Shown here in pieces: positions 29,751-45,303 of a DNA stretch of 64,000 nucleotides; within the stretch, counting starts at the first letter, position 1; each line of letters starts with the position of its first letter. The notes under the pieces were generated by a model. The model was not told where the DNA came from. It made no database searches and worked only from the letters and a program-made list of their open reading frames with translations. This DNA comes from Unio delphinus (lineage: Eukaryota > Mollusca > Bivalvia > Unionida > Unionidae). The stretch spans positions 8,443,501 to 8,507,500 of the forward strand of contig JAQISU010000094.1 in the NCBI GenBank assembly GCA_029339505.1, in the 5' to 3' direction. A program made the position numbers and the translations under genes.

Positions 29751-30148
29751 TCACTATCTGATATAATCGTATTATCGAGTGACGACGATATCATCAATGA
29801 TAATTGCGAGTATGCGGTTGATGCAATATGAAATTGAAGTAAGTAATTCTGCAGTTTACTCTGGCTGCATGATGATATCTTTTTTGCTATCCCGGTTAAT
29901 ATACCCCCGATTGTAGCCACCGCAGAAATGCAAATTGGAACTACGACCGGGGCAATCATTGTAACCGATGCAAGTATTATTCCGGCACCAGTGAGAACGC
30001 TTGACACCGAGTATATAGTAACATCAATTGCGGTGATTCTTCGTCGGTATTTTTTTATTTTTATTTGATACTCCTCAGTGAGGGTTTTGAGTCTATTCTG
30101 AAATTCTCTGACCTGATCATAGCGACATTGCGTCGATGACAAAGTCAT
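29597..30148 (-). CDS. Conserved Maverick two-TM protein with C-terminal EF-like motif
   Basis: 183 aa. An N-terminal basic coiled-coil-like helix (1-45) is followed by two long hydrophobic segments around 45-90 separated by a proline-rich turn (APVVVPIC), then a helical region and ISDSEFSAMVSIFDSAISKL near 130-150. The combination of two membrane segments with an ISDxEF-type tail is one I recall from invertebrate Polintons, where it is a conserved hypothetical. Probably a membrane-associated virion or egress protein; this is inference. A TTGAAAA motif lies 22 nt before the ATG. Confidence 0.75.
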   Translation of the reverse strand: MTLSSTQCRYDQVREFQNRLKTLTEEYQIKIKKYRRRITAIDVTIYSVSSVLTGAGIILASVTMIAPVVVPICISAVATIGGILTGIAKKISSCSQSKLQNYLLQFHIASTAYSQLSLMISSSLDNTIISDSEFSAMVSIFDSAISKLERQHEYNNNDNTDGIRKHEPKKTKNDLNNINITRL

Positions 30149-30170
30149 TGTTATTTTAAACCCGCTAGTG

Positions 30171-30177
30171 TTTTCAA
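30171..30177 (-). promoter_or_regulatory. TTGAAAA motif, two-TM protein gene
   Basis: Minus strand reads TTGAAAACACTAGCGGG, 22 nt between motif and ATG (30148). Shares the CACTAG extension with the capsid gene motif. Confidence 0.6.
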
Positions 30178-30211
30178 TTATTTGTCATCGTTAGCGGGAA
30201 TTGCTAGTACT

Positions 30212-31639
30212 TCAGTCGGAAAAATGAGCTACGAGTTCTAAACACCAGGCTATTTTTGATCTAATGGTGGAGCTATCAACCGCGACGACATTAAAGCTTT
30301 TTTTGCGACCATCCATAATTAACGTCGCGGTGCCACCAGAGTAGGTTTTACCGTCCGCGATCATATTAAATTGATCGATAGAGATCCACGTTAGCCTGTA
30401 GATACCATCGGCCCATGTTGGCTTGTAGTCAGGGCCCACTATGCCGGGGAGACCCAAGATACCGATGGATAATGTAGTATAACCGTCTCTTATCCAATCC
30501 ATGGTTCCATGATTAACCGTATACACGATATTTTTAACGCCCGTGTAGTGATGTGGAATCTTTACCTTTTCAGATATTCTTTTCAGGTTAAAAAGATCGT
30601 CGAAAATATCGAGATATTTTACCCTGATTCTGGTAGGATCTATTGTTTTTCCACTCTCCTCCCTGTTAGAGAAGAATAATGAAACCAGAAGGTCTTCAAC
30701 TTTAAGCTCTGCTTGGGTTTTAATATGGTTGTCGATGTTAGAAAATTTCGTCGTGATATCTTGGAGGCTACTGCCCTCAAAGAACTTATTAACAATATCG
30801 CTGGTGTGCTTTTGTTTGTCAATAGCGCTTTTAATTTCCGCGAGAGTCATGCCTGTCAACGATGTGGTTTCAGACACAGGTGTTCTCCCTAAAAATTTAT
30901 CCACGATGGTATTAAGTGTTGTTTGTCTCACCATAAACATATTAATATCTTTGAGAGTCATTGTAGATGTAGCCGGGACACCAAAGAAACTATTAGCGAT
31001 GTAGGCATTGTGAGTGTGCTTGCCGATAAACTCACTGATTTCAGCGAGAGTCATGCCAGCCACAAGCGGGGTTCCAAAGAACCTACCAACAATGTCGTTT
31101 GTGAGTTTTTGATCTTCGCTTACTTTAAAAATCTCGAGATAATTTGCCTTGATTTCTGAAGCAGTCATCATCCTTCCAGCTTCCTTGTTAGCGAAGAATG
31201 AATTCAACAAGTCTTTAATTTCAGCGAGAGTCATGCCAACCACAAGCGGGGTTCCAAAAAATTTATGTACGACATTTTTGCGAAAACTATTATAACCTCG
31301 TATAAAATCATTCAGCTCACGTTCGTTGGTAGCAATCGCGTCGGTGATCGTAGACACAAGTGCGCCTGGTTTAAGTTGTCCATCGTTGGAATACAGTGCA
31401 ATAGAGTTTTCAGCGGCAGCGCGATGCCGTATCAAAATGTCATTCACGGATATATTACTGCTTTTCAATTTACCCTGGCGATCTTGAAATACAACTATTT
31501 CGTTCGGGTCAACACTTGTTAAATTTAACGTCTCAGCGATTTCATCTTCTATTATTTTTTTTACATCCTCGATAGAACCCGCAGATGTTTCCTCGGTGGG
31601 TTCCAACATTGACAGAGGTTGTCCCCAAATATCGATCAT
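30212..31639 (-). CDS. Repetitive fibre-like protein
   Basis: 475 aa from the ATG at 31639 (MIDIWGQPLS); a longer in-frame start at 31729 exists but would overlap the protease gene and lacks the promoter motif. The central region contains four to five imperfect repeats of FFGTPLVxGMTLAEI plus a helical linker (for example at about 125-145, 180-200, 215-235, 245-275). The first 100 aa look ubiquitin-like or adaptor-like (a VFQDRQGKLK turn); the C-terminal 120 aa are Gly/Tyr-rich and beta-rich, compatible with a head domain. Repeats plus a distinct C-terminal domain, and the position among capsid genes, suggest a fibre or spike. No database family is recognised, so this stays an inference. Confidence 0.7.
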   Translation of the reverse strand: MIDIWGQPLSMLEPTEETSAGSIEDVKKIIEDEIAETLNLTSVDPNEIVVFQDRQGKLKSSNISVNDILIRHRAAAENSIALYSNDGQLKPGALVSTITDAIATNERELNDFIRGYNSFRKNVVHKFFGTPLVVGMTLAEIKDLLNSFFANKEAGRMMTASEIKANYLEIFKVSEDQKLTNDIVGRFFGTPLVAGMTLAEISEFIGKHTHNAYIANSFFGVPATSTMTLKDINMFMVRQTTLNTIVDKFLGRTPVSETTSLTGMTLAEIKSAIDKQKHTSDIVNKFFEGSSLQDITTKFSNIDNHIKTQAELKVEDLLVSLFFSNREESGKTIDPTRIRVKYLDIFDDLFNLKRISEKVKIPHHYTGVKNIVYTVNHGTMDWIRDGYTTLSIGILGLPGIVGPDYKPTWADGIYRLTWISIDQFNMIADGKTYSGGTATLIMDGRKKSFNVVAVDSSTIRSKIAWCLELVAHFSD

Positions 31640-31659
31640 TATTGTTAGCGTAACTTGTG

Positions 31660-31666
31660 TTTTCAA
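31660..31666 (-). promoter_or_regulatory. TTGAAAA motif, fibre-like gene
   Basis: Minus strand reads TTGAAAACACAAGTTACG, 20 nt before the ATG at 31639. It overlaps the protease stop codon, and it decides the start in favour of 31639. Confidence 0.6.
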
Positions 31667-32127
31667 TTTATTGATCCTTGTAATTTCCCACTCGTGTATT
31701 CGTTTACAATAATATGAGGTGGTTTCCACGGAGATCCAAAGGATTTTAATGAAATCTCCGCGAGTACATTTAATACTTCACGGCCGCATATCGGTGGATC
31801 ATTTAATTGTTGTGTTGGCAGCGTGGAATAAAAAATCGGAAACCCTTTGAGTTTCATCGAGGAATTTATATACCGCATAAACTCGCTTGGCGGAGCTAAC
31901 CCATATGAATCGAAATAGACAATCCCACGTGGATCAATCGCGTATGCAACCCAGTGAGTTCCCGATCCGCTGCTGTTATCAAGATTGATGATACCGGTTT
32001 CAACGTTATTTGGTTTTCTCGGTAATTGATCTCTCATAAAAACCCCTCTGAAGTTTTTTATCGCTAGTTTTTTAGCAGCATCAATTAAATCAAAATTGGA
32101 CATAGGAACCATAGGTTCCTCAACCAT
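31663..32127 (-). CDS. Adenain-like cysteine protease (capsid maturation)
   Basis: 154 aa from the ATG at 32127; an upstream in-frame ATG at 32217 would overlap the preceding gene. Polinton maturation proteases are homologous to adenovirus adenain and cleave virion precursors. The catalytic set is visible: His58 in GTHWVAY, acidic Asp73 in YFDSYG, Gln107 and Cys114 in QLNDPPICG. The Gln-to-Cys spacing of seven residues equals that of adenain (Gln115, Cys122). The N-terminal FRGVFMRDQLP block is also typical of this family. A TTGAAAA motif lies 19 nt upstream of 32127. Confidence 0.93.
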   Translation of the reverse strand: MVEEPMVPMSNFDLIDAAKKLAIKNFRGVFMRDQLPRKPNNVETGIINLDNSSGSGTHWVAYAIDPRGIVYFDSYGLAPPSEFMRYINSSMKLKGFPIFYSTLPTQQLNDPPICGREVLNVLAEISLKSFGSPWKPPHIIVNEYTSGKLQGSIN

Positions 32128-32146
32128 AGGTTCGGAAATCGAAGAT

Positions 32147-32153
32147 TTTTCAA
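32147..32153 (-). promoter_or_regulatory. TTGAAAA motif, protease gene
   Basis: Minus strand reads AATTGAAAAATC, 19 nt before the ATG at 32127. It directly abuts the end of the preceding gene (stop at 32154). Confidence 0.6.
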
Positions 32154-32636
32154 TTAATAAACCGTTCCTGGTATTCTTCTTAGACCCGATCCGTTCACGG
32201 ATTTCCCGCTGTACCATGAATACGGGGTTCCTGGTAGGTACAACCCCTTTCCCTTTTTTTTATATCCTTTCCCAGTTGCCTTTTTCAACGCCATCCCTGC
32301 CGCGGTACCAACGGCTCCCAACGCTGCCGCCTTCGCCACCGCTGGGGCAGCCGCTGCAATCAATGCTGGTATTGCGGCTAACAAAGGAAATATACCACCT
32401 GATTTTATCATGTTCGCGACTGCAGCTTTCGAAAATTCTATTTGAACTCCTCGCTTATTTTTCATTGCATCATTGAAATGTTTTATTTGACGATCCGTTA
32501 ATGATATTTTATGTGTACCTCCGGACATCTGCGCTGGTTTTAACGTTATTGTTGTTCCACATTCCTTAGCGGATTTTGATTTTAATTTCTTGACCTGACC
32601 ATCAGTCAGCTTGACACTAACAACACTATATGGCAT
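32154..32636 (-). CDS. pVI/pX-like membrane-active virion protein
   Basis: 160 aa from the ATG at 32636 (MPYSVVSVKL); ATGs at 32651 and 32702 are alternatives. Two similar beta modules (KLTDGQVKKL...TITL and SLTDRQIKHF...QIEF) are followed by a Gly/Ala/Pro/Leu hydrophobic stretch beginning GGIFPLLAAIPALIAAAAP and a Lys-rich tail (KKATGKGYKKKGKG). This layout is typical of the adenovirus pVI/pX-like protein conserved in Polintons and related adintoviruses, thought to act in core packaging or membrane disruption. It sits between the capsid and protease genes, as expected for a protease substrate. Confidence 0.8.
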   Translation of the reverse strand: MPYSVVSVKLTDGQVKKLKSKSAKECGTTITLKPAQMSGGTHKISLTDRQIKHFNDAMKNKRGVQIEFSKAAVANMIKSGGIFPLLAAIPALIAAAAPAVAKAAALGAVGTAAGMALKKATGKGYKKKGKGLYLPGTPYSWYSGKSVNGSGLRRIPGTVY

Positions 32637-32658
32637 TTTATTGTAAAACATATTTATT

Positions 32659-32665
32659 CTTTCAA
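32659..32665 (-). promoter_or_regulatory. TTGAAAG variant motif, pVI/pX-like gene
   Basis: Minus strand reads CAATTGAAAGAATAAAT, 22 nt before the ATG at 32636. Confidence 0.5.
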
Positions 32666-32709
32666 TTGATCTAATTGGGGAAATCCTATGGAAACTTTTC
32701 AAGTTTCAT

Positions 32710-34134
32710 TTACAGATTTTCCACTGGTGCATCAACAAGTCTCATTCGTCCGCCAACCCCTTCTAACAACATTGATTTGTCGCTGAGAATGACAGCAACC
32801 GCTCTATAATTAACACCACCAGGAGCTATACGAGCCCTAAAATGTATGTCAACAACGGATTGTCTCATTAAATCAAGATGTTCCAGCGAAAAGTAATAAA
32901 TCGGATACAATTTCTTAAAATCGAGTTGAGATATTTGCAAACCAGTATCAACGTTTTGATCACGACCCATATATGACAGCATCCGATGATATACACGTGC
33001 TATATGATTTTCTGTGTAATTAAGTTGTATATCCTCGGTTGGTTCTTGTTGTCCGTTTATTCTCAGCGAGACTTCTCTAACACCTAACTGATCAAATATC
33101 ATATGGCTGCGTTGTTGATTACCAACTCGCTCATTATTCTGTAACGCTATAAATATATGACGTGGAGCTGAAACGCCTTGTTTTGATGCCAGGTGCCATG
33201 TGAATATATCATCGACATTATCCTGTTTGACATCAGTCGTTGTTGTTAGCCAACTTAGCAATGATTTGCCACCTGTTTCCATAAATGAGAGTAGCCGCTC
33301 TTCTCTGGTAATTGATGGGGTCATTACTGGCATCCACAATACCAATTTAGTTATTTTAACTTTACCCTCAGCGGCACCAGTACGCCAAATTGCATCGTTG
33401 TCATTGCCTTTTCGCACTAACGCGATTGTGTGTTTGGCTCCATAGATGACTTTTCTGACATTTCTGCAGAATCCAAATATGTGATGGAGTGGAATTGCAC
33501 ACGAAAACTTTTTCTCTTGTCCTTCCAATGCTAATTTTCGTGTTGCAAACCCTAGATTGAAATTACCATTAACGCCTCCGAGAATATCAAACGCAGCTCC
33601 GGGTCTAGCTCGACGTTCTGGATTAGTTGCTTCTCGTTGATTATCAACTGAAGTGTCTTGCGGTGTTAACACTTTAATGTATTGAATGTGGTCAGCGTTA
33701 TCAGTAGTATCCTTTGCAAACATCATAGACGGACCAGCCGATCTTGTATAATCATCGGAATATCTCGCTAGTCCGATTATTGTTGTTGCAACATCAACCT
33801 CGCGTTATATTGATTCAATTTCTTTTCCATCAATGAGATATCTTGCACTTTCAAATAACGCCATTATGCCATTGTTAACGAACCCAACTCGGATATTTGG
33901 GTCATCTGCATATGAGGTATCCTCTGCAACATTTGTTACGAGTTTTCCTTCGATTTCGATAAATGCTTCACACGGCAAAAAGTATTTACTGGTATCTTGA
34001 ACTTGAAGTTCAACTCGCGATCGTAGGTCGGGTTGTATTGCATGATAGGAATAGTATTGATAATCGCGGACGGAATCATCTTTTCGCATTGGGGCTTCCA
34101 TATCAAGCGCGGGATCAGCTGTTCGTTTAAACAT
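32710..34134 (-). CDS. Double-jelly-roll major capsid protein, one in-frame stop
   Basis: Reading frame of 474 codons from ATG 34134 to the stop at 32710, interrupted once by TAA at 33805-33807 (codon 110). The two parts are in the same frame and coding similarity continues without a gap across the stop, including VDVATTIIGLARYS just after it. The N-terminal part has NNGIMALFESARYLIDGKEI, matching the diagnostic FExxRYxxxGxEI block of Polinton/adintovirus hexon-type capsid proteins; the C-terminal part is beta-rich with a VDIHFRARIAPG strand. Forms pseudo-hexameric trimers in the family. A TTGAAAA motif lies 16 nt before the ATG. The stop is either inactivating, suppressed by readthrough, or an assembly error; a restart at ATG 33726 would give a 338-aa fragment lacking the first jelly-roll strands. 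Confidence 0.88.
33805..33807 (-). other. In-frame TAA within the capsid gene
   Basis: Minus strand reads GAATCAATATAACGCGAGG; the TAA falls in the capsid frame at codon 110. The surrounding sequence shows no other lesion. Confidence 0.9.
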
Positions 34135-34150
34135 TTATAACATACTAGTG

Positions 34151-34157
34151 TTTTCAA
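34151..34157 (-). promoter_or_regulatory. TTGAAAA motif, capsid gene
   Basis: Minus strand reads CAATTGAAAACACTAGTATG, 16 nt before the ATG at 34134. Confidence 0.6.
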
Positions 34158-34190
34158 TTGGTGAATTGCAAAGCAATTTCATCTTTGTAA

Positions 34191-34676
34191 TCATCGTCGT
34201 TGAAAATTCCTCGAATTTCTTTTTAGTTTCAAACCACTTCCTGCTATCGCGTTCATGATAGCGTTATCTGTTACTGGCGAAGCTGTCAATTGTGACGAAG
34301 TCAATTGCGCTAGTTTTTCTTCCACTGCGTTATTTATTACTTTGCTGATTTTTGCAGGCATCACTGTAGTTGATGGCAGCACTAATGACGAAGTCATTCG
34401 TGGTTTCTTTCGCACCAATGATGCTATTTTATCTTTCGCAGCAGAAAATGCCTTTCCAGCAAGATTTCCAACGAAATTGATTCCCTTATCACGGATAGCA
34501 TCAATGGCTTTCATTGATAATTGTTTAGCTAACGGCGCCACCTTGGGAGCCATTCTTGTAAATAACCCCGCAATGGTATTGCCGAAACCATCTCCGTACC
34601 ACGCGCGATAAACAGGCAATCGTGAGTTCACCACGTAGACACTTACGGGTTTATCATGGTTGTAGTGTATAATCAT
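34191..34676 (-). CDS. Basic virion core-type protein
   Basis: 161 aa, strongly basic. It has an N-terminal PVYRAWYGDGFGNTIAGLF block followed by an amphipathic APKVAPLAKQ helix, a central LVRKKPRM stretch and a basic C-terminus (LKLKRNSRNFQRR). The aromatic Tyr-Gly-x-Gly-Phe-Gly block preceding a basic helix is a pattern I recall from a small conserved protein encoded next to the capsid gene in invertebrate Polintons. A DNA-binding or membrane-associated internal virion protein is the likeliest role, by inference. Confidence 0.72.
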   Translation of the reverse strand: MIIHYNHDKPVSVYVVNSRLPVYRAWYGDGFGNTIAGLFTRMAPKVAPLAKQLSMKAIDAIRDKGINFVGNLAGKAFSAAKDKIASLVRKKPRMTSSLVLPSTTVMPAKISKVINNAVEEKLAQLTSSQLTASPVTDNAIMNAIAGSGLKLKRNSRNFQRR

Positions 34677-34696
34677 CTTATTATAAAACTAGTAGT

Positions 34697-34703
34697 TTTT
34701 CAA
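34697..34703 (-). promoter_or_regulatory. TTGAAAA motif, basic virion protein gene
   Basis: Minus strand reads AATTGAAAAACTACTAGTTT, 20 nt before the ATG at 34676; it again carries a CTAGT extension. Confidence 0.6.
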
Positions 34704-34710
34704 TTAGTGA

Positions 34711-35763
34711 TCAATCGCTTACATCCATAAGATTTTCATCGTTGTGATTTTCAACTAATTCAGCAATAAGTTCTCGATATACATTAATGTCCATGATACC
34801 ACCAGCAAATAATCGTCTACAGATATCAGCGGCCTCGTTAATTATCTCGACGGAGTTATTTCCGGCTCGTTTCCCTCCGATGAGAACCTCTAACCGTGAT
34901 ATATCACTGAGAATATTACCAGGACATGTCACGGTAGAATCAAATATATCCTTTGGATTTTTAATCGAATATCCCTTTCCGCTTGTTTCCTCAGTTGTAC
35001 CAGTTGCGCCCTGACTATCATCAAGTAATTGCCTTTGTCGGCCTCGACTTTGTTTTTCTCGTTCTTGTTGTTTTTGTATACCATAACTATCAACTCCTAC
35101 TTTAAAAGATCTATACTCAATTGTATCCTTTTTCAAATTACCAATAATCCCCTTATTCGTTTTATACAACCAATTAACCCATTCATCTCGGCTTATTCTA
35201 CTGTTTTTATACTCGTCTTTTAAAAAATCCTTTCTAGAATCAAAGCTTTTGGCGGCGAAATCACCAAAAGTCGTATAATCTTGGTGTTTCTCCAATTGAG
35301 GTCGTTTGATTTCCTTTATAGCTCCTTCGGTGAGTTTGTCTATAAAGGAAACACCTCTTGGGGTGACGACATCAACAAGTTGTGGTTCAGGTGTGGAATC
35401 ATCAATATCAGCTAATCGTTCATACTCACGCTGAGTTTTTATATCACTGGATAACTGTTGTATCCCTGCGCGTGTTTGTCCGGTCTCTGCTGCTACCTTT
35501 TCAAGCACACCAAGAACAGGCACTTCTCGTCGCTTGCCTTCCTTAGGAATATCTCCGTATATTGCTCGTTCAGTTGCTGTTTTCACATCGCTGGTCGCCT
35601 TAGTTACCGGGGCGAACAGTTGTTCACTTGACACAGAAAAGTCAGTCTGCGCTTGTTGTCGTTGTTGAAGTTGATCGCGAAGTCTGTCTCGAACCGGTAT
35701 AAACTTTTTAATTGCTGCTAGCCGCTCTCGGGCTAATCTAGTTGTAAGCGATTCACCAACCAT
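34711..35763 (-). CDS. Coiled-coil Maverick structural protein
   Basis: 350 aa, charged and mostly helical. The first 60 aa are Arg/Gln-rich (RLRDQLQQRQQAQ). A middle region around 165-200 carries GDFAAKSFDSRKDFLKDEY. The C-terminal module LEVLIGGKRAGNNSVEII plus RRLFAGGIMD and YRELI is a pattern I recall from the C-termini of Polinton proteins. No enzymatic motif is seen. First gene of the leftward virion cassette, with a TTGAAAA motif 19 nt upstream. Role inferred as internal or scaffold-like virion protein. Confidence 0.72.
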   Translation of the reverse strand: MVGESLTTRLARERLAAIKKFIPVRDRLRDQLQQRQQAQTDFSVSSEQLFAPVTKATSDVKTATERAIYGDIPKEGKRREVPVLGVLEKVAAETGQTRAGIQQLSSDIKTQREYERLADIDDSTPEPQLVDVVTPRGVSFIDKLTEGAIKEIKRPQLEKHQDYTTFGDFAAKSFDSRKDFLKDEYKNSRISRDEWVNWLYKTNKGIIGNLKKDTIEYRSFKVGVDSYGIQKQQEREKQSRGRQRQLLDDSQGATGTTEETSGKGYSIKNPKDIFDSTVTCPGNILSDISRLEVLIGGKRAGNNSVEIINEAADICRRLFAGGIMDINVYRELIAELVENHNDENLMDVSD

Positions 35764-35782
35764 ATATTGTTTGTGAACTAAA

Positions 35783-35789
35783 TTTTCAA
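35783..35789 (-). promoter_or_regulatory. TTGAAAA motif, coiled-coil protein gene
   Basis: Minus strand reads CATTTGAAAATTTAGTTC, 19 nt before the ATG at 35763. Confidence 0.58.
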
Positions 35790-35826
35790 ATGTGAAATCC
35801 GGAGGGTTTCCATCATAATTAAAAGC

Positions 35827-35856
35827 TTAGTTATTAAATAACTTAGTTATTAAATA
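35827..35856. repeat. Direct repeat of TTAGTTATTAAATAA
   Basis: Two 15-16 bp copies sit immediately before the ATG of the plus-strand 92-aa gene, in the divergent region between it and the minus-strand cassette. Each contains the palindrome-like TTATTAAATAA. Candidate operator or core promoter. Confidence 0.5.
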
Positions 35857-36135
35857 ATGTACCATCAAGCTAACGTATTCATCTTCGACAGGGTTAAACT
35901 GTACGACGCTATTCGCGAGTGTTTCAGAAATAACATCGCTGGGGATTTCAGAATTGTAATATCTGAGAATGGCGATGAACGATTTGTGTTAACGACGCGG
36001 CAACAAGAACAATTACGTGAAAATGGAGGCGTCGCGGTGATTACTTGCTACTACGACCAGATCATCCATTATGCACATAACTGCATGAGCAAGTCCAAAC
36101 TGATGAGTATCCTTTCAGGAGAAAATCCTATGTAA
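35857..36135 (+). CDS. Orphan 92-aa protein
   Basis: 92 aa, transcribed away from the virion cassette. Mixed alpha/beta composition with FDRVKLYDAIRECF, a GDFRIVIS strand, TTRQQEQLRENGG and a Cys/Tyr-rich ITCYYDQIIHYAHNC segment. It resembles nothing I can name; the QQEQL-type helix could fit a small DNA- or protein-binding fold, but this is a guess. It lacks the TTGAAAA motif, suggesting a different expression class from the virion genes. Confidence 0.55.
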   Translation: MYHQANVFIFDRVKLYDAIRECFRNNIAGDFRIVISENGDERFVLTTRQQEQLRENGGVAVITCYYDQIIHYAHNCMSKSKLMSILSGENPM

Positions 36136-36225
36136 CAAGTGTTACAAAAAACGCTAAAAAAAAATAAATAAATTATTTAAATTATTTACGAAAGCCTATA
36201 TTATTTTTTAGTAACACTCACGTGG

Positions 36226-36582
36226 TTAAGATACGGGTCGCTCCTCGTTTAACATTTTTCTAAGATCACGAACTTTAGAACCAATTTCAGCTCGTTTTTG
36301 ATATTCTTGGCCAAGCTTTTGACGTATTGCTTCAACGGTGCTAAATAGCGTTATAAATAAATTAATGTCGTTACCGTACAAACAACCATTAATGGATTTT
36401 TGAATTCCTTTCACGAGCCTGTACATCCTAGGTAAAACATAACGACCCTTACTAGACAGATATTCAATATCTTCATATTCCGAGGTAATCTTGTCAACGT
36501 CGAGACTTTCAGATAATAATACCCCTTTATTATTTAAATTTGAGATTTCAGCAATTATAGCATTTACATCATTGATATCCAT
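36226..36582 (-). CDS. Orphan 118-aa coiled-coil protein
   Basis: 118 aa, helical and charged: an N-terminal DVNAIIAEISNLNNK helix, a GRYVLPRMYRLVKGIQKSI middle and a C-terminal Lys/Arg/Glu helix. No membrane segment, no Cys pairs, no known motif. No TTGAAAA upstream; the leader is an A/T-only stretch. It faces the central non-coding region. Confidence 0.5.
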   Translation of the reverse strand: MDINDVNAIIAEISNLNNKGVLLSESLDVDKITSEYEDIEYLSSKGRYVLPRMYRLVKGIQKSINGCLYGNDINLFITLFSTVEAIRQKLGQEYQKRAEIGSKVRDLRKMLNEERPVS

Positions 36583-36828
36583 TATTTATATTTTTATATA
36601 AATAAATTTATTTATAAATATAGTATACTGTATCTCTAATTAATAAAAATAAAACATATATGACAACACATCTTTGGAACTCCTTGGGTGCCTTCGCATC
36701 CAAGTAAGCCCAAGGGGGACCCGAAACATACATCTCCGGAAGGGAGGCCTAAGGTGGCAAACGCCATCTTAGACCGCCCAGAAGATATGCTTGAGGTATA
36801 ACGTCACAACATGGACGGCACAATGCCA

Positions 36829-37030
36829 TATATTTCCGCTCGAGTGTTGCGGCAAATTTTAGGCATAACATATACTTAATTAACTTAATTAAGGATGGAT
36901 TATAATTCAATGGAACGATGATGGTATGATATATTTCCGCTCGAGTGTTGCGGCAAATTTTAGGCATAACATATACTTAATTAACTTAATTAAGGATGGA
37001 TTATAATTCAATGGAACGATGATGGTATGA
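36829..37030. repeat. 101-bp tandem duplication
   Basis: The segment starting TATTTCCGCTCGAGTGTTGC occurs twice back to back with a 101-bp period and apparently no differences, so it is young or maintained. Confidence 0.92.
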
Positions 37031-37045
37031 TGTGGGCGTGGTAAA

Positions 37046-37156
37046 CCAAACCAACATGGCAACCCATGAAATCTCATTCATGGTTGCATGAGTTGGAAAA
37101 AAACACCAACCCACGCTACCGAGAATGCGATAGCATGGGTTGCCATGTTGGTTTGG
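37046..37156. repeat. 23-bp perfect inverted repeat, 65-nt loop
   Basis: Arms CCAAACCAACATGGCAACCC plus ATG at 37046-37068 and its exact reverse complement at 37134-37156. The loop contains smaller dyads (CTCATTCATGGTTGCATGAG and GCTACC...GATAGC). A cruciform of this size is a candidate origin or regulatory structure. Confidence 0.9.
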
Positions 37157-37224
37157 CTGAGGGGGGGACCGCCCCACCCCCCCCAATTAATAGAAAAAAA
37201 CATCTTCCGTTTCGCCATCAAATA

Positions 37225-37310
37225 ATGTGTCTGCTATGGGGACCGAACACGTAGTAGTTGATAGCTATGTTTACAAGACAAACACGATACCATTACACCA
37301 CGGACTAGTC
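37225..37310 (-). tRNA. tRNA-Thr(UGU)-like segment, probably degenerate
   Basis: On the minus strand an A-box TGGTGTAATGG is followed by an anticodon arm with loop CTTGTAA (anticodon TGT, Thr) and a 4-of-5 paired stem, then a B-box-like GTTCGGTCC. The acceptor and T stems do not pair well and the T loop lacks its usual A58, so it is likely a pseudo-tRNA or tRNA-derived fragment. Confidence 0.3.
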
Positions 37311-37325
37311 ATACAGAATAGAGAT

Positions 37326-37357
<32 letters not shown>

Positions 37358-38119
37358 CTGATATACTTAACAATAAGAGATTTTTAAAATAGACAATTTT
37401 ACTGTATCCATCGTATTTAGGAATATAAAATACTAAGTACACAAAAAAAAATTAATTTAACTGTTTGTAAATATCAATCACGCATGCCTGCGTCAGTGAA
37501 ATACCGATCATACAGGGTGGGAAACAGAAGTGTGTACTGAAGGTCACATGAATACCGATCAATATAGAGGAGAGGGAAGACATGTATACTTAACAATAAG
37601 AGATTTTTAAAATAGACAATTTTATGCTGCAACAATGAGAAATATTTTAAACAAAATAATCCAGTTGTTTAATAAAACAGCGTTTTATATACTCTGTTAT
37701 AATTCTCTAGATAAAATACATTCACATACAAGGAATTTTAACCACGCCCACCTACTTCAATGAATAGGAAACACTCGCGTTCTGGCTGAGCGAACATAGG
37801 TAATGCGTGGATTATAAAGAACGTCTGTACTGAAAAGAACGAGTTAGCTGTCTGCTTTACTGCTAGTCCACCCACCCCACACATGAGATATGTAGATAAA
37901 TAAAACTAATAATGCAGTTTTAGCCCACAAGTGACAATAAAAGTTTTATTCTCTATCGAAAACTCATGCATTATATCTCCATTACAGTCACGTGGGCGCG
38001 CCTAGTCAAGTACAGGTAATATAGCAGGCGACAAATTCCTTTGACGTCATAATACAAGGGAACTTAGTAGGTAGGGTGTGAATTGTAGTGCGGATTTATC
38101 CATAAAGGATTTATCTCCC

Positions 38120-38620
38120 TTAAATAGTTTCAGTGTATACGAACTTTATTTTATGACCATTTTTTTTAGACAGAGATGTTTTAATGATTTTTTCAGCAAC
38201 AAATCGAATGGAAGTACTGCAAATATCGAAATATTTTCCAGCCGCATTTATCGACTGAAAGCTTCTCTCTTCATTATTTTCTAAATCAAACGATTTCACA
38301 CCCTTGGGATGTTTCGCGTGCTTACCAGCGTTGCTTTTTAAAAGGTTATCGCGCTGCGAGACGGCTTGAAGATTCCCAAGACAATTATCAGTCTTCACGC
38401 CATTTATGTGATCAATCACAAGACCGTCTTCGATTAATCCGTAAAATGCTTCATAGATGGCTCTGTGACAGAGATACTTCTTCCTCCCAGCTGAAAACAT
38501 CAAATAGCCCATATTATTCAGATACCCAACAGGTTCTTTGAGTCTGCGGTGCCTGACAACACCATCACTAGAGGCTTCGTAATTAGCAAGCACTGGGTGA
38601 GGTCTGAAATCTTGGCTCAT
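38120..38620 (-). CDS. NUMOD4-HNH-NUMOD1 endonuclease
   Basis: 166 aa. Residues 1-45 resemble NUMOD4 (YEASSDGVVRH); about 50-95 form the HNH nuclease with CHRAIYEAFYG, then DHINGVKTDNCLGNLQ; about 108-140 resemble NUMOD1 (FQSINAAGKYFDICSTSIR). This layout is that of homing endonucleases of phages and large DNA viruses, which cut DNA at specific sites. Here it is a free-standing gene between the non-coding region and the Cys-rich protein gene. A decayed copy sits at the same position in the relic Polinton, so it is a stable family component and not a one-off insertion. It may serve recombination, exclusion of rivals or end processing; that is inference. Confidence 0.88.
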   Translation of the reverse strand: MSQDFRPHPVLANYEASSDGVVRHRRLKEPVGYLNNMGYLMFSAGRKKYLCHRAIYEAFYGLIEDGLVIDHINGVKTDNCLGNLQAVSQRDNLLKSNAGKHAKHPKGVKSFDLENNEERSFQSINAAGKYFDICSTSIRFVAEKIIKTSLSKKNGHKIKFVYTETI

Positions 38621-38633
38621 TTGTATAATAATA

Positions 38634-38960
38634 CTACTTGTCTAATTTATTATCTGCTTTAATTATAAATCTCTGGATATAATCTTGAGGGGTTTTTATT
38701 ACTTTGTCCTTGATTTTATCAAGGATGACGGAGTCAATGATTCGTTTGTCATAGTAGCGTTTTAGTTCCCTGTATCGTTTACCCCCACAAGCAAGGCATA
38801 ATTGCGATTTTCCTCTAACACCCACCCCACATTGGAGGCATGCGAGAGGGCCTTTTGAACCGTTCCTCACGCTTTGCATATGATACCCACAGAATTCGCT
38901 TCTGCATGATTTGTTACACGGGGTTGTAGATCCAATCATTAGCCACTTGCAGTGATTCAT
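38634..38960 (-). CDS. Cys-rich double zinc-binding protein
   Basis: 108 aa. Two Cys clusters: CNKSCRSEFCGYH (15-27) and CLQC...CLAC (41-58), then a basic helical tail. The clusters could bind two zinc ions. I recall similar Cys-rich domains near polymerase-helicase fusion genes in unannotated fungal and protist sequences, without a known function. It is divergent from the polymerase gene, with 42 bp between start codons. A relic copy is recognisable at 46279-46505. Role unknown; nucleic-acid binding in replication is plausible. Confidence 0.75.
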   Translation of the reverse strand: MNHCKWLMIGSTTPCNKSCRSEFCGYHMQSVRNGSKGPLACLQCGVGVRGKSQLCLACGGKRYRELKRYYDKRIIDSVILDKIKDKVIKTPQDYIQRFIIKADNKLDK

Positions 38961-39002
38961 TATACTATATTTTTCTATTTAAATACTTGTTTTAATTATA
39001 AC

Positions 39003-42000
39003 ATGGAGGAGTTCAAGAGATTATCGAAAATTAAGCCCTGGAAAAATACTAAATTCAATCTTGATAGGGAGTTCCAAAGATTATCGAAAATCAAACCTTG
39101 GAAAAATACTAAATTCAATCTTGAAAGGGAGTTCCAAAGATTATCGAAAATCAAACCTTGGAAAAATACTAAATTCAATCTTGATAGGGAGTTCCAAAGA
39201 TTATCGAAAATCAAACCTTGGAAAAATACTAAATTCAATCTTGATAGGGAGTTCCAAAGATTATCGAAAATTAAGCCTTGGAGAAATACTAAATTCAATC
39301 TTGATAGAGTCTCTGATACACCAAAACGTCTAATCGGTGATAGAACTATACTCGGTAAAATCAGGGAGTGTTTTAATGAATTCTACCGAGACGGTGCAGC
39401 ATACTGTTGGTCGACATTTCGAATTATTGATGAAGATGTCAATGTACCCATCATCGATGCTACTATGAACGATAAAAGAGCAGCTGAGATAATTTCACAC
39501 CTTGGTGTAAAATCCAAGGGATTTTCATCCAAAGGTGGAAATCCAAAGGATTTCAAGCAAAGCAATTCCCAACAAAGCAATTCCAATCAGAAGTATTTTT
39601 TCAGAATAAAATTCATTATCGAAGTCGAAGGCAAATGGATTATTAGGGATAAATTTGAACCAATCCTCAAGAATAAAAAAGCTGTCATTGTGAGTAGAGA
39701 TTCCAAACCAGGAATTCTAACTGGAATTGACAAACCATACTACGAGAGATCTTATCCCGTAACAGCAATCGTTTATGGGATATATCCGTTAAATGATAAA
39801 CCCGATATTGCAAAACTAGCTCCTATGAAATATTCACCATTGACTTCGTCAAGGCTCAATTGTGTAGCAACACGGGTAATGGAACACTTCACAAATGCAT
39901 CCCGAGGAAATAAACTAACTGATCTGCGACGTAGGAAAATAACCGAATGGGAACTGACAGTGAAACAGCACGGTGCAAAGATTTCTGATATAGCTAAATT
40001 AGAAACATCATTAAGATTTCCAATAACCGTTATGACGATAACCGGAGAAGTATTACACGAACCGAAATATAAATTACAAGGAGCGCCAATACAAATTATT
40101 GATCATAACGAACACGCGTGGACACCTGCAGTAACAATATTTCCACGAGATAGAACCGTGAGATATATCCCCCCGGAATTTTCCGGGGATGTTTTCTATG
40201 AAGAGAAATTATTTGATGCTATTCATGCGTTGTGTAAAGATGATCCTGTGTCAGTGTGGTTACTTAGTAGTGCTGGTTCCGAATCAGGATTTGATCAATT
40301 TGTAAGACCAAATGGTGAATTATATCGCGTTGAAGAATTAGATAACAGAATGAGAAAAATCGCTAATGATTTTTCACCAGAGAGTTTCCATGAAAAACTA
40401 CTCACGGATAGTTTTACTATTTCTTCAGTGGTAGCTCACTTCGCAAGAGAAAAAAACTCCTGGCGTCCAACACGAAGTGATTTTCTCGAGGATGTAAAAT
40501 TGAGTTGCATCGAATTTGGTCATGGAGGACTGTGGAATACAAAATACCATCGTGACAGTATGATTTCAATTGATATATCCGCGTGTTATCCTGGAAGTTT
40601 TCTCGGGTATGGAGAATGTAGTAACTATTTTAAACGATTTGGACACCCCACGCATGAAATGACTCGTGTTGCGATTAATGGACCATTACCTGATTTTGAT
40701 TTAACCGGATTCGCTCGTGTGATATCATTTGAACTCGCTACAGGGTTACATCCGTGTAGTTATGTTTGGCTCGGTAGACACCTATCTGAAAAGGCCTGGA
40801 TGCCAATAGTGTTACTACGATATATGATTGATTGTGGCATGCTGATATCGTTGATTGTTTCCGAAGCTATTATATGCTATCGAGCTCAGAAAGAAGTTTG
40901 GCTACCACAACCCGATCTAGATCGTATAATCAGCGAACTACGAAAACAGTGTCCAGATGGAAATTCTTCGAATTTCAGTGAAGAAGAAATCATAAATTGG
41001 TCTAAGAAGTTATTTGAAAGTAAAAAAGAACAAGCAAAGGATTTTGGACGAAAAATAATCGGTAAATTTACCCAGGGTGGAAGATACGACAATGCAAAAT
41101 TTTCCTCGCGGTTGATCATAGACGTCGCTGAATACGATTTTCTTGTAACGGATTTAACGAAACAGGGAAAACTTGTATCCCGTAAGGATGCTTTTCTATC
41201 CAATGGTGAGAAATTGGGTACGGTTGTTACCTACTGTGATGGATATAATTCCCAGTACACACATTTGAGAAGTTCTATGCTAGCTTATGCTTCTATCAAT
41301 TTATTTTCGATGATAAATAGATTTCCTAATACCGCGGTTAGAGTAGCCACTGATTCGATGTATATACACAATAAGTACAAATCAGCTGTAGCGGCATTCA
41401 CAGATCCGGAGGAAGCGTGGGGGCGTTGGCGATTTAAAAAGGAGATGCTACATGAGTATTGTGAATCCGCAGACGTTGCCATGGATGAAAAGTACTTAAA
41501 ATGTGATGAGATTCAATCAGAATTTTCTAATGCACCACCGGTATCTGATCCAATATGTAGATACAAGACAGTTTATTTAAACGGTTGTGGTGGGTCAGGA
41601 AAGACAACTCGTGCAATTGAATTATATCGTGGTGGTGGAAATACTTGTATTCCTACTAACATGATTGTGTTAACACCGACTCACAGACTCGCCAGAGAGA
41701 TGATACAGCGAGGGGTAAATGCTTGCACTTACCATAGTTTTTTTCGATGGAAAGGTGACAAATGGACTCCTGAGCGTATGGGTGATAAATTCATTCCTGA
41801 AATCATAATTTGGGATGAAATATGCACAGTGTCATTAGATGTATTAAAAACATTTCTTGAGTGGTTGTTAAACAAAAACACAAAAGTCGTCATGTGCGGT
41901 GATCACGGCCAACCACCACCATTTGTCGGTGGATCTCCACATGAATGGCTAAAGGGTTCTGTAGACTATTATGAAGAAATTAATACCGACCATAGATCAC

Positions 42001-42908
42001 TTGATGAACAATTACGCGAGTTCAAAGCACTGCTTAGATTACAACCGGATAAAATCCAATGCGAAATAGCGCGTGAAATAATTTCAGAAACTCCTATGAA
42101 TGATTTCTGGGAAACGTGGAGACCAAATGATTTGATAGTAGCAAGTAGAAAAATAGTCAGAGACACACTTCAGATGAAGTTATTTGAATTGCATAAAGAA
42201 AAATTTGCAACGCTTCCAGTACCGTTGTGTTATAGGCCTTCGGATACACGAAAGCAGAATATAGAAGTTGATATTCCAAGCCTGACAAAGTCAGGAAGTG
42301 AAAAGCAGATTCTCGTGTTAAATGATATTGTGCTGGTTGATATCAATGTCGTTGAAGATGCATTGCGTGCTAATAAATCCCCATGGACGCTAGGATACGC
42401 AGCAACAATACACTCTTCACAGGGATTGACTATATCGGATACAATTGTTTGGATGGTAGATAATCGCATCGAATGGTCGAATTTAGTCTATCTCGCAGTA
42501 TCCAGAGTACGAAGAATAAATCAGCTTCGAAGAATTGTCGTCATGACAGAGTCAGGTGGCGATGATGAAATCATTGGTGATGATAATGACACAACAATAA
42601 GTGATATTGATGTTAGCATCATTAATAAAAAACTCTCCGGTTACAAACAACAGGACAAAAAAAAACAACGAGAATTTGATATTGATGCTAAATTAATAAT
42701 CACTTTGAAGAAACAACAGAATAATCACTGCGCGAGTTGCAATTGTATAATGCGTTGGCAGTATTCGGATAAGGATCCTCGCCAATTCACCGTAGACAGA
42801 AAAAATAACAATCTCGGTCATGTCAGAAATAATGTGATGTTGACTTGTCTTGAGTGCAATAGACGCCGGGGTGAAAGCACAATGCCTCTGGCATCGGGTG
42901 CTAATTAA
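39003..42908 (+). CDS. Polymerase B-SF1 helicase-HNH fusion protein
   Basis: 1301 aa from the ATG at 39003. Order: five 20-aa repeats (about 3-102); an N-terminal region ending in a HNEHAW block; a family-B polymerase palm with motif A DISACYPG (about 521), the motif B region around KFTQGG (about 682) and motif C ATDS (about 781); an SF1 helicase with Walker A GCGGSGKTT (about 862), Walker B IIWDE (about 935), CGDHGQPP (about 963), IHSSQGLT (about 1136) and LAVSRVRR (about 1165); and a C-terminal HNH-type domain with CASC, GHVRNN and CLECNRRRG (about 1242-1292). I find no 3'-5' exonuclease DxE motif. One protein would thus synthesise, unwind and nick DNA. The gene converges on the integrase gene with an 8-bp overlap. 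Polinton polymerases are normally stand-alone and protein-primed, so this is an atypical lineage. Confidence 0.93.
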   Translation: MEEFKRLSKIKPWKNTKFNLDREFQRLSKIKPWKNTKFNLEREFQRLSKIKPWKNTKFNLDREFQRLSKIKPWKNTKFNLDREFQRLSKIKPWRNTKFNLDRVSDTPKRLIGDRTILGKIRECFNEFYRDGAAYCWSTFRIIDEDVNVPIIDATMNDKRAAEIISHLGVKSKGFSSKGGNPKDFKQSNSQQSNSNQKYFFRIKFIIEVEGKWIIRDKFEPILKNKKAVIVSRDSKPGILTGIDKPYYERSYPVTAIVYGIYPLNDKPDIAKLAPMKYSPLTSSRLNCVATRVMEHFTNASRGNKLTDLRRRKITEWELTVKQHGAKISDIAKLETSLRFPITVMTITGEVLHEPKYKLQGAPIQIIDHNEHAWTPAVTIFPRDRTVRYIPPEFSGDVFYEEKLFDAIHALCKDDPVSVWLLSSAGSESGFDQFVRPNGELYRVEELDNRMRKIANDFSPESFHEKLLTDSFTISSVVAHFAREKNSWRPTRSDFLEDVKLSCIEFGHGGLWNTKYHRDSMISIDISACYPGSFLGYGECSNYFKRFGHPTHEMTRVAINGPLPDFDLTGFARVISFELATGLHPCSYVWLGRHLSEKAWMPIVLLRYMIDCGMLISLIVSEAIICYRAQKEVWLPQPDLDRIISELRKQCPDGNSSNFSEEEIINWSKKLFESKKEQAKDFGRKIIGKFTQGGRYDNAKFSSRLIIDVAEYDFLVTDLTKQGKLVSRKDAFLSNGEKLGTVVTYCDGYNSQYTHLRSSMLAYASINLFSMINRFPNTAVRVATDSMYIHNKYKSAVAAFTDPEEAWGRWRFKKEMLHEYCESADVAMDEKYLKCDEIQSEFSNAPPVSDPICRYKTVYLNGCGGSGKTTRAIELYRGGGNTCIPTNMIVLTPTHRLAREMIQRGVNACTYHSFFRWKGDKWTPERMGDKFIPEIIIWDEICTVSLDVLKTFLEWLLNKNTKVVMCGDHGQPPPFVGGSPHEWLKGSVDYYEEINTDHRSLDEQLREFKALLRLQPDKIQCEIAREIISETPMNDFWETWRPNDLIVASRKIVRDTLQMKLFELHKEKFATLPVPLCYRPSDTRKQNIEVDIPSLTKSGSEKQILVLNDIVLVDINVVEDALRANKSPWTLGYAATIHSSQGLTISDTIVWMVDNRIEWSNLVYLAVSRVRRINQLRRIVVMTESGGDDEIIGDDNDTTISDIDVSIINKKLSGYKQQDKKKQREFDIDAKLIITLKKQQNNHCASCNCIMRWQYSDKDPRQFTVDRKNNNLGHVRNNVMLTCLECNRRRGESTMPLASGAN
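39009..39308 (+). repeat. 60-bp in-frame tandem repeat, five units
   Basis: Five near-identical 60-bp units at the 5' end of the polymerase gene encode five copies of a 20-aa basic module containing RLSKIKPWKNTKFNL. Differences are mostly single bases (AAA/GAA and AAA/AGA changes), indicating recent expansion. Confidence 0.97.
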
Positions 42909-43863
42909 GACCATGCGGTGGCAATTGAGTATCCTCGGGAATCACTTGCAGTTGTTGTCGAGTAAATCCTCGCTGAGGAGCAGTTGAATCCAGTTTATAG
43001 ATTGCTGGTCTACCAGTTGATCGTGTTATACTAGATATCTTATGCGTAGTGACGCTCCAAATAGGATCAGTAGCCCTTTTTCTACCCCCTTCAAGCTCTC
43101 CTGGTTCGTATAAGTACCTAACAGTGACATTACTACCAAGAATTGGTTGGGAAACGCTAGCGTTTCTAGGGAAATCTTTTTGTGGTTGTACGGGTATAGA
43201 CTTCTTTTTAATCGCGTTGATAGGTTTCATGTTGATTGTTCTAGTAATCTCGTTATTCAGTGCAGTAATCACAGCTGGTAACCTTTTGACCCATTCACGG
43301 GATCGCTTTTCTTGAATGAATTCTTTTGCGTATTGATATCCAAATAACCGCTCAGCAATCGTCCGATTAAATCGTTCGACAATGGCCTGATCGCGATGTA
43401 GCGCAGTATGCCCTCGTCGTATGGTGACATTATGATTTTTCATTGTAGATAACACTGCACCCTGAAATTCCTTGCCAGGATCAACCTGCAATAGATTCGG
43501 CCAGTGCAGAGGACCTCGTCGATAAATCCTTTCAAATGCAGAAGCAACTTCAGTGGCTGATTTTGTTTTTAACGGTTCTGCTTCTTTGTATCGACTTGCA
43601 ATATCAACTACGGTTAACGCGTATTTGTAACCACGATCATGTGGCAGAAATAATATATCAGCCTGATGAACTTCATTAGGAGCGGTCACATCAAAATGCG
43701 AGAATTGAATTTGTTTAGGTGGTGGTAGATAAATTTGCCATAGTGCCTGTTTAGATAACCAATCCGCCGCAGTGGTTTTTTTCACTTTTGCAGCGCTAGC
43801 GAGTTTATGTACTGCTGATTTACCCCTCCAGTATCCTCTTGGGGAATAATAAATTGATTCCAT
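42901..43863 (-). CDS. Retroviral-type (rve) integrase of Polinton class
   Basis: 320 aa DDE integrase that would insert the element and make the 5-6 bp duplication. The N-terminal zinc-region analogue carries YYSPRGYWRG and WLSKQALWQIYLPPP, typical of Polinton integrases. The catalytic core has Asp69 (HQADILF), Asp128 (QVDPGKEF) and Glu163 (AIVERFNRT), with 34 residues between the last two, as in the D,D35E family. The C-terminal part has an SH3-like IWSVTTHKI...YKLDS...RGFTRQQL region; no chromodomain is obvious. A TTGAAAA motif lies 15 nt before the ATG, shared with the virion genes. Confidence 0.95.
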   Translation of the reverse strand: MESIYYSPRGYWRGKSAVHKLASAAKVKKTTAADWLSKQALWQIYLPPPKQIQFSHFDVTAPNEVHQADILFLPHDRGYKYALTVVDIASRYKEAEPLKTKSATEVASAFERIYRRGPLHWPNLLQVDPGKEFQGAVLSTMKNHNVTIRRGHTALHRDQAIVERFNRTIAERLFGYQYAKEFIQEKRSREWVKRLPAVITALNNEITRTINMKPINAIKKKSIPVQPQKDFPRNASVSQPILGSNVTVRYLYEPGELEGGRKRATDPIWSVTTHKISSITRSTGRPAIYKLDSTAPQRGFTRQQLQVIPEDTQLPPHGLN

Positions 43864-43878
43864 ATTAAAATGGTAGCA

Positions 43879-43885
43879 TTTTCAA
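43879..43885 (-). promoter_or_regulatory. TTGAAAA motif, integrase gene
   Basis: Minus strand reads GGTAATTGAAAATGCTACC, 15 nt before the ATG at 43863. It overlaps the PLA2 stop codon. Confidence 0.58.
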
Positions 43886-44294
43886 TTACCAGCACCCATC
43901 ATCAATTTGCCTTTCATAGCTGATTTTACCAACCACGAAGCCAACTTTTCTTTAAAAGATTTATCAGGAATAGCATTTAACGCATGAATTAATTTCACAT
44001 CCGCGAGATGCCTGTGTTGCAGGTTGCTGCTTTTATAAGCAACATCATGAAGGTGACAGGCCTTATCAATGGCGTTTATTGGTTCTTCGCCGGGTCGGGG
44101 TTGATTTTGATCATCAAGTCTGATATCTAATCGTGTTCCAGGACCACAGTAGCTATATCCTGGAAGGTGCTTTTCTCCGGGGTACTTTGCCCATGGGGTT
44201 CCAGGGAGCTTTGTCAATTTGGCTGCGATATCACCTCCTCGTTTTTTTTTAAAACATCTCCGGATTGTAAAATCTTTGATTTTGTAGAAATAAA
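43882..44294 (-). CDS. Parvovirus-type phospholipase A2 domain, no ATG of its own
   Basis: The open frame runs from a stop near 44295 to 43882. The PLA2 core spans about 44157-44025: a calcium loop YCGPGT and a catalytic HDVAY with a following HLAD. This matches the secreted-type PLA2 in parvovirus VP1, used to breach endosomal membranes. No ATG precedes the core anywhere in the frame (a TTG at 44217 is the only start-like codon near it). The frame lies one base back (-1) from the upstream zinc-ribbon gene and meets it at A-AAA-AAC (44241-44247). In the relic element the zinc ribbon and PLA2 share one frame. A ribosomal -1 shift, or a one-base slip in the A9 run that has broken a fusion gene, would both explain this. 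Confidence 0.85.
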
Positions 44295-44420
44295 TCTAAA
44301 CTTTTTTATACCACATGTTGCACATCTACCAGTTAGTGCTGATCTGTTATTTTTAGTTGTAACCGTCGTCACATCATTTGTGCTAGTACGCGTTTTACAC
44401 TTCACACAATATAGATCCAT
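44214..44420 (-). CDS. DUF5679-like zinc ribbon (upstream part of a PLA2 fusion)
   Basis: 68 aa. Cys5/Cys8 (YCVKC) and Cys33/Cys36 (CATC) form a zinc ribbon with the sequence pattern of DUF5679 (YCVKC, then NxRxALTGxC, then CG plus a basic strand). Its stop overlaps the start of the PLA2 core frame by a few bases. It is divergent from the ATPase gene with only 5 bp between the two ATGs, so their promoters must lie inside each other's coding region or act from further away. The last 14 or so codons after the A9 run are probably not part of the ancestral domain. Confidence 0.75.
   Translation of the reverse strand: MDLYCVKCKTRTSTNDVTTVTTKNNRSALTGRCATCGIKKFRFISTKSKILQSGDVLKKNEEVISQPN
44241..44247 (-). 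promoter_or_regulatory. A-AAA-AAC slippery heptamer, candidate -1 frameshift site
   Basis: The minus strand contains nine A bases then C; in the zinc-ribbon frame the last seven read A-AAA-AAC, the heptamer used for -1 shifting in several retroviruses. Shifting here enters the PLA2 frame without meeting a stop. An 8-bp inverted repeat (TTCCAGGA with TCCTGGAA) lies about 80 nt downstream, further than usual for a stimulatory structure. Confidence 0.5.
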
Positions 44421-44425
44421 AATTT

Positions 44426-45097
44426 ATGTATAGAGATATGAATATAATTGATTTTTCAGCGACTAAAATAAGAGAACCAGTTAAGCATCATGCAGCGCTA
44501 CCAAACTCTATCCGTGCAATTATAATCGGGCCATCTGGATCCGGTAAAACGCAATTGTTGCTCAATTTAATAATGAGATGGATGAAGTGGGATAAGTTGT
44601 ATTTAATTGCCCCTAGCGTAGATGATCAACGATGCTATGAAGTGTTAAAGGATTTTAACGAGAATGCATCAGAAATTAAAGGTGAGAATACCATTGATTT
44701 TATAACTGATATTGACGAGGCGCCATCCGTGGATGACCTTGATGGGAGCATTAACAATTTAGTCGTATACGACGATGTGATGTTAGACAATCAAAAAAAC
44801 CCAGCTAGAATATTTTCCCGGGGGCGTCACAAAAACACTGATGTGATATATGTCACTCAACGCTACACTCAGATTCCAAAAGTGATCAGAGATAACTGTA
44901 ATATTCTTGCTGTGTTTAACGGCGTTGATACACATACGCTACGAAATATTTGGCAGACATGGTGTTCCGATATGGACTTCAATCAATTTAAAAATTTCTT
45001 TAGTCATGCTCAGTCAACCCCGCATGGATTTGTAACAATAAATTTACATGATCCTCGGACACGATATCGTATCGGACTCGATCAAATATTTGGTTGA
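44426..45097 (+). CDS. FtsK/HerA-type packaging ATPase (A32-like)
   Basis: 223 aa from the ATG at 44426 (second ATG at 44438). Walker A GPSGSGKTQ at residues 35-43, Walker B VVYDD at 113-117, and a conserved RHKNTDVIYVTQRYTQIP segment with the sensor glutamine. This family pumps DNA into capsids in Polintons, virophages and large DNA viruses. The final 23 bp, including the stop, lie inside the right TIR. The relic element carries a broken homologue in which the young element is inserted. Confidence 0.95.
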   Translation: MYRDMNIIDFSATKIREPVKHHAALPNSIRAIIIGPSGSGKTQLLLNLIMRWMKWDKLYLIAPSVDDQRCYEVLKDFNENASEIKGENTIDFITDIDEAPSVDDLDGSINNLVVYDDVMLDNQKNPARIFSRGRHKNTDVIYVTQRYTQIPKVIRDNCNILAVFNGVDTHTLRNIWQTWCSDMDFNQFKNFFSHAQSTPHGFVTINLHDPRTRYRIGLDQIFG

Positions 45098-45303
45098 AAT
45101 CATTTATTATTTTTTGTTAACCCAGTGATGAAATCACTAGTGATGAAATCACTAGCAGCAGAGAGGGTGGATGACAACGACGTTGGCGTATATAAGGAAA
45201 TCTTATTTTATCGAATAGACGCCATTTTTTTTACTATTTGGCAGAAGCCTCAGATTTCCGAATCGACGCTCGGAAAGTTGTGAGGTTCACCCTCTCTGCT
45301 GCT
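45075..45303. repeat. Right terminal inverted repeat, 229 bp
   Basis: Reverse complement of 27930-28158. It contains the ATPase C-terminal codons (LDQIFG and stop) at its inner end, the double AGTGATTTCATCACT dyad at 45124-45153, and the 150-bp outer segment bounded by the 16-bp inverted pair. Confidence 0.97.

Follow-up and report, generated by a model that had tools for sequence, protein, structure and literature searches.

In a 64,000-nucleotide stretch of the genome of the unionid bivalve Unio delphinus (contig JAQISU010000094.1, positions 8,443,501 to 8,507,500; hereafter the window) we identified a 17,374 bp element, inserted as a unit at 27930..45303, that carries a gene joining three activities in one chain. 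The encoded protein runs from a protein-primed-type family-B DNA polymerase (pPolB) palm through a Pif1/RecD2-like superfamily 1 (SF1) helicase to a C-terminal HNH-like domain. Our preferred interpretation, to which we assign a probability of about 0.75, is that this is the pPolB-S1H replication protein of a Polinton-like endogenous DNA element, which would replicate by protein-primed strand displacement, the SF1B helicase being part of the same chain.

Conserved domains of the fusion protein

The fusion gene (39003..42908, + strand) encodes 1301 amino acids and its translation has no internal stop. Coordinates, strand and length agree exactly with an initial annotation of this DNA, and all the polymerase, helicase and HNH motifs quoted there are present in the translation. 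An upstream extension of the frame to a GTG at 38952 is possible, although translation more probably begins at the ATG at 39003, the host being a eukaryote. Relatives were gathered using residues 400-1280 as query (59 proteins), the distant relative P0059 as query (nine proteins, including itself) and a profile search (the best 120 of 128 proteins), and the family set comprises 130 proteins with the window's own included. The palm and the helicase are each at least half covered in 72 of these 130, so the fusion is no assembly accident.

Residue conservation was counted over the 53 family members (the window protein among them) in which protease region, palm and helicase are all covered, using the rows with a residue at the position concerned. 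The catalytic residues Asp524 of motif A and Asp784 of motif C are fixed (53/53 each), and the first aspartate of motif C is replaced by alanine in 52 of the 53. The key residues of the helicase are similarly retained, with Walker A Lys867 in 53/53, motif III Gln970 in 51/51 and motif VI Arg1168 in 48/49. The confident Pfam matches were all to the helicase (AAA_19, E 2.3e-11; AAA_30, E 2.9e-10), and the palm went unrecognised both here and in seven scanned relatives. In a sequence search of the PDB the fusion protein matched Pif1 helicases, at best with E 1.8e-4, but polymerases were absent. The Pfam check proposed in the initial annotation recovered the helicase, but neither the palm nor the HNH domain was matched in the fusion protein, and the polymerase was identified from motifs and structure.

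The palm (40503..41537, +) contains the motifs GHGGLW, DISACYP, IIGKFTQG and VATDS, and in structure comparison its fold matched the phi29 polymerase clearly better than other family-B polymerases. phi29 DNA polymerase has an active exonuclease and a separate terminal protein, and carries no helicase or nuclease. The top match in a structure search of BFVD was H6WBE3, with the pPolB of mavirus as the second best viral structural match. The model has a pair of strands between motifs B and C, as well as additional strands and helices between motifs A and B, which may correspond to the TPR1 and TPR2 insertions of pPolB-S1H palms.

The segment that occupies the exonuclease position (40131..40502, +; residues 377-500) contains no invariant acidic residue. 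In an alignment of 30 proteins, covering His368 to the GHGGLW motif (506-511), four columns (400, 437, 460 and 504) had an acidic residue in 80% or more of the rows. The fusion protein itself has Asn at 437, and the only invariant acidic position in the interval is Glu504, directly before GHGGLW, so that columns 376 to 503 show no invariantly acidic position as an exonuclease signature. Some structural alignments place model residue 279-280 onto phi29 residue 52-53, and another begins at phi29 residue 185. Since the match reaches at most from phi29 residue 52 onwards, a remnant of the exonuclease scaffold may persist in the model. We see no sign of a proofreading site and the exonuclease domain appears to be lost, in line with the initial annotation, which had noted that no exonuclease was visible. 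A scaffold remnant is likewise reported for mavirus in the excerpt of PMC11071308.

Upstream of the palm we observed three features that were absent from the initial annotation. The first is a set of five near-identical 20-residue repeats at the N-terminus (39009..39308, +; residues 3-102), encoded by 60-nt tandem units; the relative P0002 has a single copy of this unit at its N-terminus. The second is a predicted alpha/beta domain at the position of a terminal protein (39309..39812, +), in which Tyr251 is the sole serine, threonine or tyrosine conserved above 85% (53/57 rows). We infer that this domain would be the terminal-protein domain. The third is a vOTU-type cysteine protease region (39819..40130, +; residues ~280-376) with a conserved catalytic pair, Cys287 in 50/50 and His368 in 52/53 rows. 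OTU structures appeared in a Foldseek search only as weak matches (E 0.4 and above) with the domain embedded in a larger model. The VIA-align rows for the N-terminal model mainly cover model residues 344-724 and barely reach the terminal-protein and protease domains.

The helicase (41550..42542, +) is closest to RecD2, Pif1 and Dda (SF1B). Its PHROGs match is a Dda-like helicase (E 8.8e-16) and its model additionally resembles RecD and the Helitron helicase. It is followed by an HNH or endonuclease VII-like domain (42630..42893, +) that matched phrog_1035 (E 1.2e-8) and no Pfam family; the isolated domain was not matched by Pfam HNH models, which stayed below cut-off in the relatives P0003 and P0024, and no PDB sequence match to it was better than E 0.97. 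Motifs, fold comparison and PHROGs together bear out the earlier claim that polymerase, helicase and HNH-like domain share one frame.

Whether the HNH domain belongs to the replication machine was a separate question. It could be a passing homing endonuclease, a possibility compatible with our preferred interpretation which we regard as rather unlikely. Intein or homing invasion has been suggested for such domains in the excerpt of PMC11071308, a free-standing HNH_3/NUMOD1 homing-endonuclease-like open reading frame (ORF; 38120..38620, -; PF13392, E 1.8e-13) adjoins the fusion gene, and nine distant relatives (P0058-P0066), all among the 53 full-span proteins, have no HNH domain. However, the domain is present in 39 of the remaining 44 full-span proteins, the ingroup, and the other five terminate within 23 residues past the helicase, so that all 39 that reach the region possess it. 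When every ingroup protein with a helicase was counted, 56/72 had the HNH domain. Thirteen of the other 16 terminate within 30 residues past the helicase, two are cut inside the HNH domain (tails of 41 and 76 residues) and one has an unrelated tail of 86 residues, and there is no clear complete HNH-less protein among them. Pairwise divergence of the HNH domain also tracks that of the palm (r 0.77) and the helicase (r 0.81), with none of 2000 permutations as high (39 proteins, shared ancestry uncorrected). This argues that the fused HNH domain is a working part of the protein.

Element ends and modes of replication

The element is bounded by terminal inverted repeats of 229 bp, identical to each other, at 27930..28158 (+) and 45075..45303 (-). 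The tip of the left repeat is AGCAGCAGAGAGGGTG, and the first 16 bases of each repeat recur as an exact inverted copy at repeat positions 135-150 (28064-28079 on the left and 45154-45169 on the right). When the tip 16-mer was searched across the whole window with up to 3 mismatches, five matches were found against 0.13 expected, all of them exact. Four of them belong to the terminal repeats, and the fifth, at 4296, is located where an ATPase remnant ends. As single-strand DNA the 229-nt repeat gave a computed fold of -37.5 kcal/mol (z -5.99), and 0 of 200 shuffles were as good, which suggests that the ends of the element can form hairpins. The repeats are copies of each other and this feature therefore counts as one observation. 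The tip, AGCAGCAG, is also three-base periodic. According to the excerpt of PMC4974454, protein-priming systems have in common repeated termini together with a sliding or jumping-back step, but as 0.5% of the 8-mers in the window are also three-base periodic, the tip is only suggestive of protein priming.

In protein-primed replication of the element, the N-terminal domain, or the whole protein, would act as the terminal protein. A hydroxyl group, perhaps that of Tyr251, would serve as primer at the AGCAGCAG tip, with jumping back as in adenovirus, and the vOTU-type protease may subsequently release the priming part. Copying would be done by the palm, while the SF1B motor would travel 5' to 3' along the displaced strand, open the duplex ahead and so compensate for the lost exonuclease. 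The HNH domain would trim or resolve DNA branches or ends, and insertion of the replication product would fall to the rve integrase of the element.

The structure of the ends raises a second possibility, self-primed hairpin replication, in which the 3' end folds onto the internal tip copy and primes synthesis while nicking by the HNH domain regenerates the ends, as in parvoviruses. We consider this improbable. The exact inverted tip copy, the stability of the folded strand, the recurrence of the 16-mer after the ATPase remnant at 4296 and the retention of the HNH domain across the lineage would all fit, and hairpin-forming termini, here by computed folding only, are shared with parvovirus-type replicons. 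Yet the palm has a protein-primed-type fold, and a conserved protease Cys/His pair would be needless for self-priming. The HUH (Rep/NS1-type) nickase of such replicons found no Pfam match among the 19 ORFs of at least 100 residues in the element (a list that excludes 28159-29596), and the argument from the ends is reduced by their being a single observation and by the 16-mer near 4296, for which no inverted partner was found. A hybrid mode, in which the 3' end of the displaced strand self-primes and the fused HNH nickase resolves the ends, also seems to us a long shot; if true, the element would encode a single-protein replisome that resolves hairpins, intermediate between the protein-primed and rolling-hairpin modes.

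The alanine in motif C could instead mean that the polymerase is dead and that the protein acts only as a helicase-nuclease, a view of Tlr1-like proteins held earlier according to the excerpt of PMC11071308. We think this very unlikely, as the other two catalytic aspartates are invariant and the same excerpt cites active polymerases that lack the first one. Least probable is the proposal of the initial annotation, a one-protein replisome working by nick-primed or recombination-coupled synthesis, for which the HNH-like domain and helicase in one chain and the likeness of the latter to RecD and the Helitron helicase can be cited, but over which protein priming is preferred because of the phi29-like fold, the vOTU-type Cys/His pair upstream of the palm and the domain at the terminal-protein position, the reiterated tip being in addition the pattern expected of protein-primed ends. 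The single element with its perfect ends offers a testable replication substrate, with either a protein-linked tip or a folded hairpin. Two features merit particular attention, the retention of the HNH domain and the capacity of the ends to form hairpins.

Besides the inverted tip copy, each terminal repeat contains two tandem copies of a near-palindromic unit, TAGTGATTTCATCAC. The remnant near the distant 16-mer, at 4196-4311 of the window, is a C-terminal ATPase piece of another relative, directly followed by the exact 16-mer. We also considered whether the terminal 150 bp could be a small inserted element, and dropped this candidate on finding that its two flanks share no duplication. The tip 16-mer occurs in 17 IMG/VR contigs, with one match apiece (a count without a chance expectation), and the terminal repeat gave a single match to phage DNA (E 0.7).

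Relatives and comparison with known systems

Host names of the relatives were taken from source labels only. Among the matches listed, the named sources are the molluscs Elysia crispata, E. marginata and Sinanodonta woodiana (a unionid bivalve), the coral Desmophyllum pertusum, several Glomeromycota and Thiodiazotropha metagenome-assembled genomes, the last of which are probably host DNA inside symbiont assemblies. The suggestion in the initial annotation of a widespread lineage that includes fungi therefore stands. In a FastTree tree of 122 of the 130 proteins, the window protein and both Sinanodonta proteins form one clade (support 1.0), and all 15 Glomeromycota-named proteins fall in another, alongside some unnamed ones (support 1.0). 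The longest contigs for the nine distant palm-helicase proteins without HNH measure 12.8-15.5 kb in seven cases and 2.9 and 4.5 kb in the others, and may be whole viruses or elements. No Tlr1, Polinton-like virus or transpoviron sequence was named among the matches listed in the family searches. The fusion was not found in IMG/VR with the protein, the family alignment or P0064 as query; two matches to the alignment were rejected, being helicase-only ORFs on phage-looking contigs. Scans of IMG/VR with the integrase and the larger capsid piece gave no match, and a scan of prokaryote genomes gave one weak match, in Providencia.

The initial annotation had presented the protein as a departure from described systems, but the same architecture is already present in the excerpt of PMC11071308. 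Matched feature by feature against that description, the protein is of the pPolB-S1H ('Tlr1-like helicase') type of Polinton-like viruses, Tlr1 and transpovirons, and is not new in kind. Shared features are a palm followed by an SF1 helicase, an upstream vOTU-type Cys/His pair, loss of the exonuclease, the missing first aspartate of motif C and, in some published members, a C-terminal HNH or GIY-YIG domain. Peculiar to the present case are the mollusc host, a lineage common to coral and Glomeromycota, an HNH domain throughout the ingroup, the five N-terminal repeats and the hairpin-capable ends. The mavirus pPolB shares the order of terminal protein, vOTU and palm with a mere exonuclease remnant, but its helicase is a separate SF3 protein, and the excerpt of PMC11071308 mentions neither a fusion nor an HNH domain for it. 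The dinoflagellate counterpart mentioned in the initial annotation is loosely matched by OmPLV of Oxyrrhis, in which an SF1 helicase is joined to pPolB but is N-terminal, and in which the exonuclease is retained (excerpt of PMC12721341). That excerpt also treats the pPolB-S1H group, and suggests independent origins of helicase-pPolB fusions.

Excerpts of further papers already report helicases with a fused HNH or GIY-YIG domain in elements of cryptophytes and other protists, pPolB exchange involving molluscs and Polinton pPolBs in molluscs (PMC12220804), and Polintons in Rhizophagus (PMC7805220). Within the partial texts covered by our literature search we found no account of a molluscan fusion of this type or of Polintons with hairpin ends, and animal or fungal members may have been mentioned earlier. 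What we add are members in molluscs, coral and Glomeromycota, the retention of the HNH domain and the inverted tip copies in the ends. The exonuclease-less polymerase-helicase fusion, described from Polinton-like viruses, Tlr1 and transpovirons, thereby gains a lineage with representatives in mycorrhizal fungi, a coral and molluscs.

Gene content and surroundings of the element

The Polinton-type nature of the element, also proposed in the initial annotation, is supported by its gene content and ends. It encodes a retroviral-type (rve) integrase (42901..43863, -; PF00665, E 1.5e-8), an A32-like packaging ATPase (44426..45097, +; PF04665, E 2.7e-11) and a double-jelly-roll major capsid protein, whose frame (32710..34134, -) has one in-frame stop. 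The larger capsid piece matched PF21738 (E 1.2e-18); the smaller has no Pfam match and was assigned to the capsid by frame only. This layout, together with the inverted ends and the target duplication, is that of Polintons/Mavericks. According to the excerpt of PMC11071308, however, the pPolB of the latter keeps its exonuclease and has no fused helicase, the opposite on both counts to the protein described here, and because its pPolB lacks an exonuclease we file the element as Polinton-like and not as a textbook Polinton. A phospholipase A2-like protein (43882..44217, -; PF08398, E 3e-12) and a possible adenain-type (C5) maturation protease (31663..32217, -; PF00770, E 0.011, scoring 15.8 bits where Pfam requires 21.3) are also encoded.

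Immediately outside both ends of the element lies the 5-bp sequence ATTTG, the target duplication. ATPase pieces of an older relative flank the element on both sides: residues 86-223 on the left, as three stretches plus a fourth, overlapping match (27587-27918), and on the right residues 4-77, as two stretches (45329-45536). The simplest reading is that the element was inserted into the ATPase gene of this relative. Beyond the right-hand pieces, up to 46759, we observed further pieces resembling the phospholipase A2, integrase, 108-residue ORF and HNH genes of the element.

No Rfam family reached its gathering score in 27500-46500. Between the gene blocks of the element lies an inverted repeat at 37046-37156 (51 nt with a 9-nt spacer, 84% complementary), and two identical tandem copies of 101 bp are found at 36828-37029. 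Outside the element, a tandem array of 64-bp repeats extends for ~2.2 kb (25273-27465) and stops ~0.5 kb from the left end.

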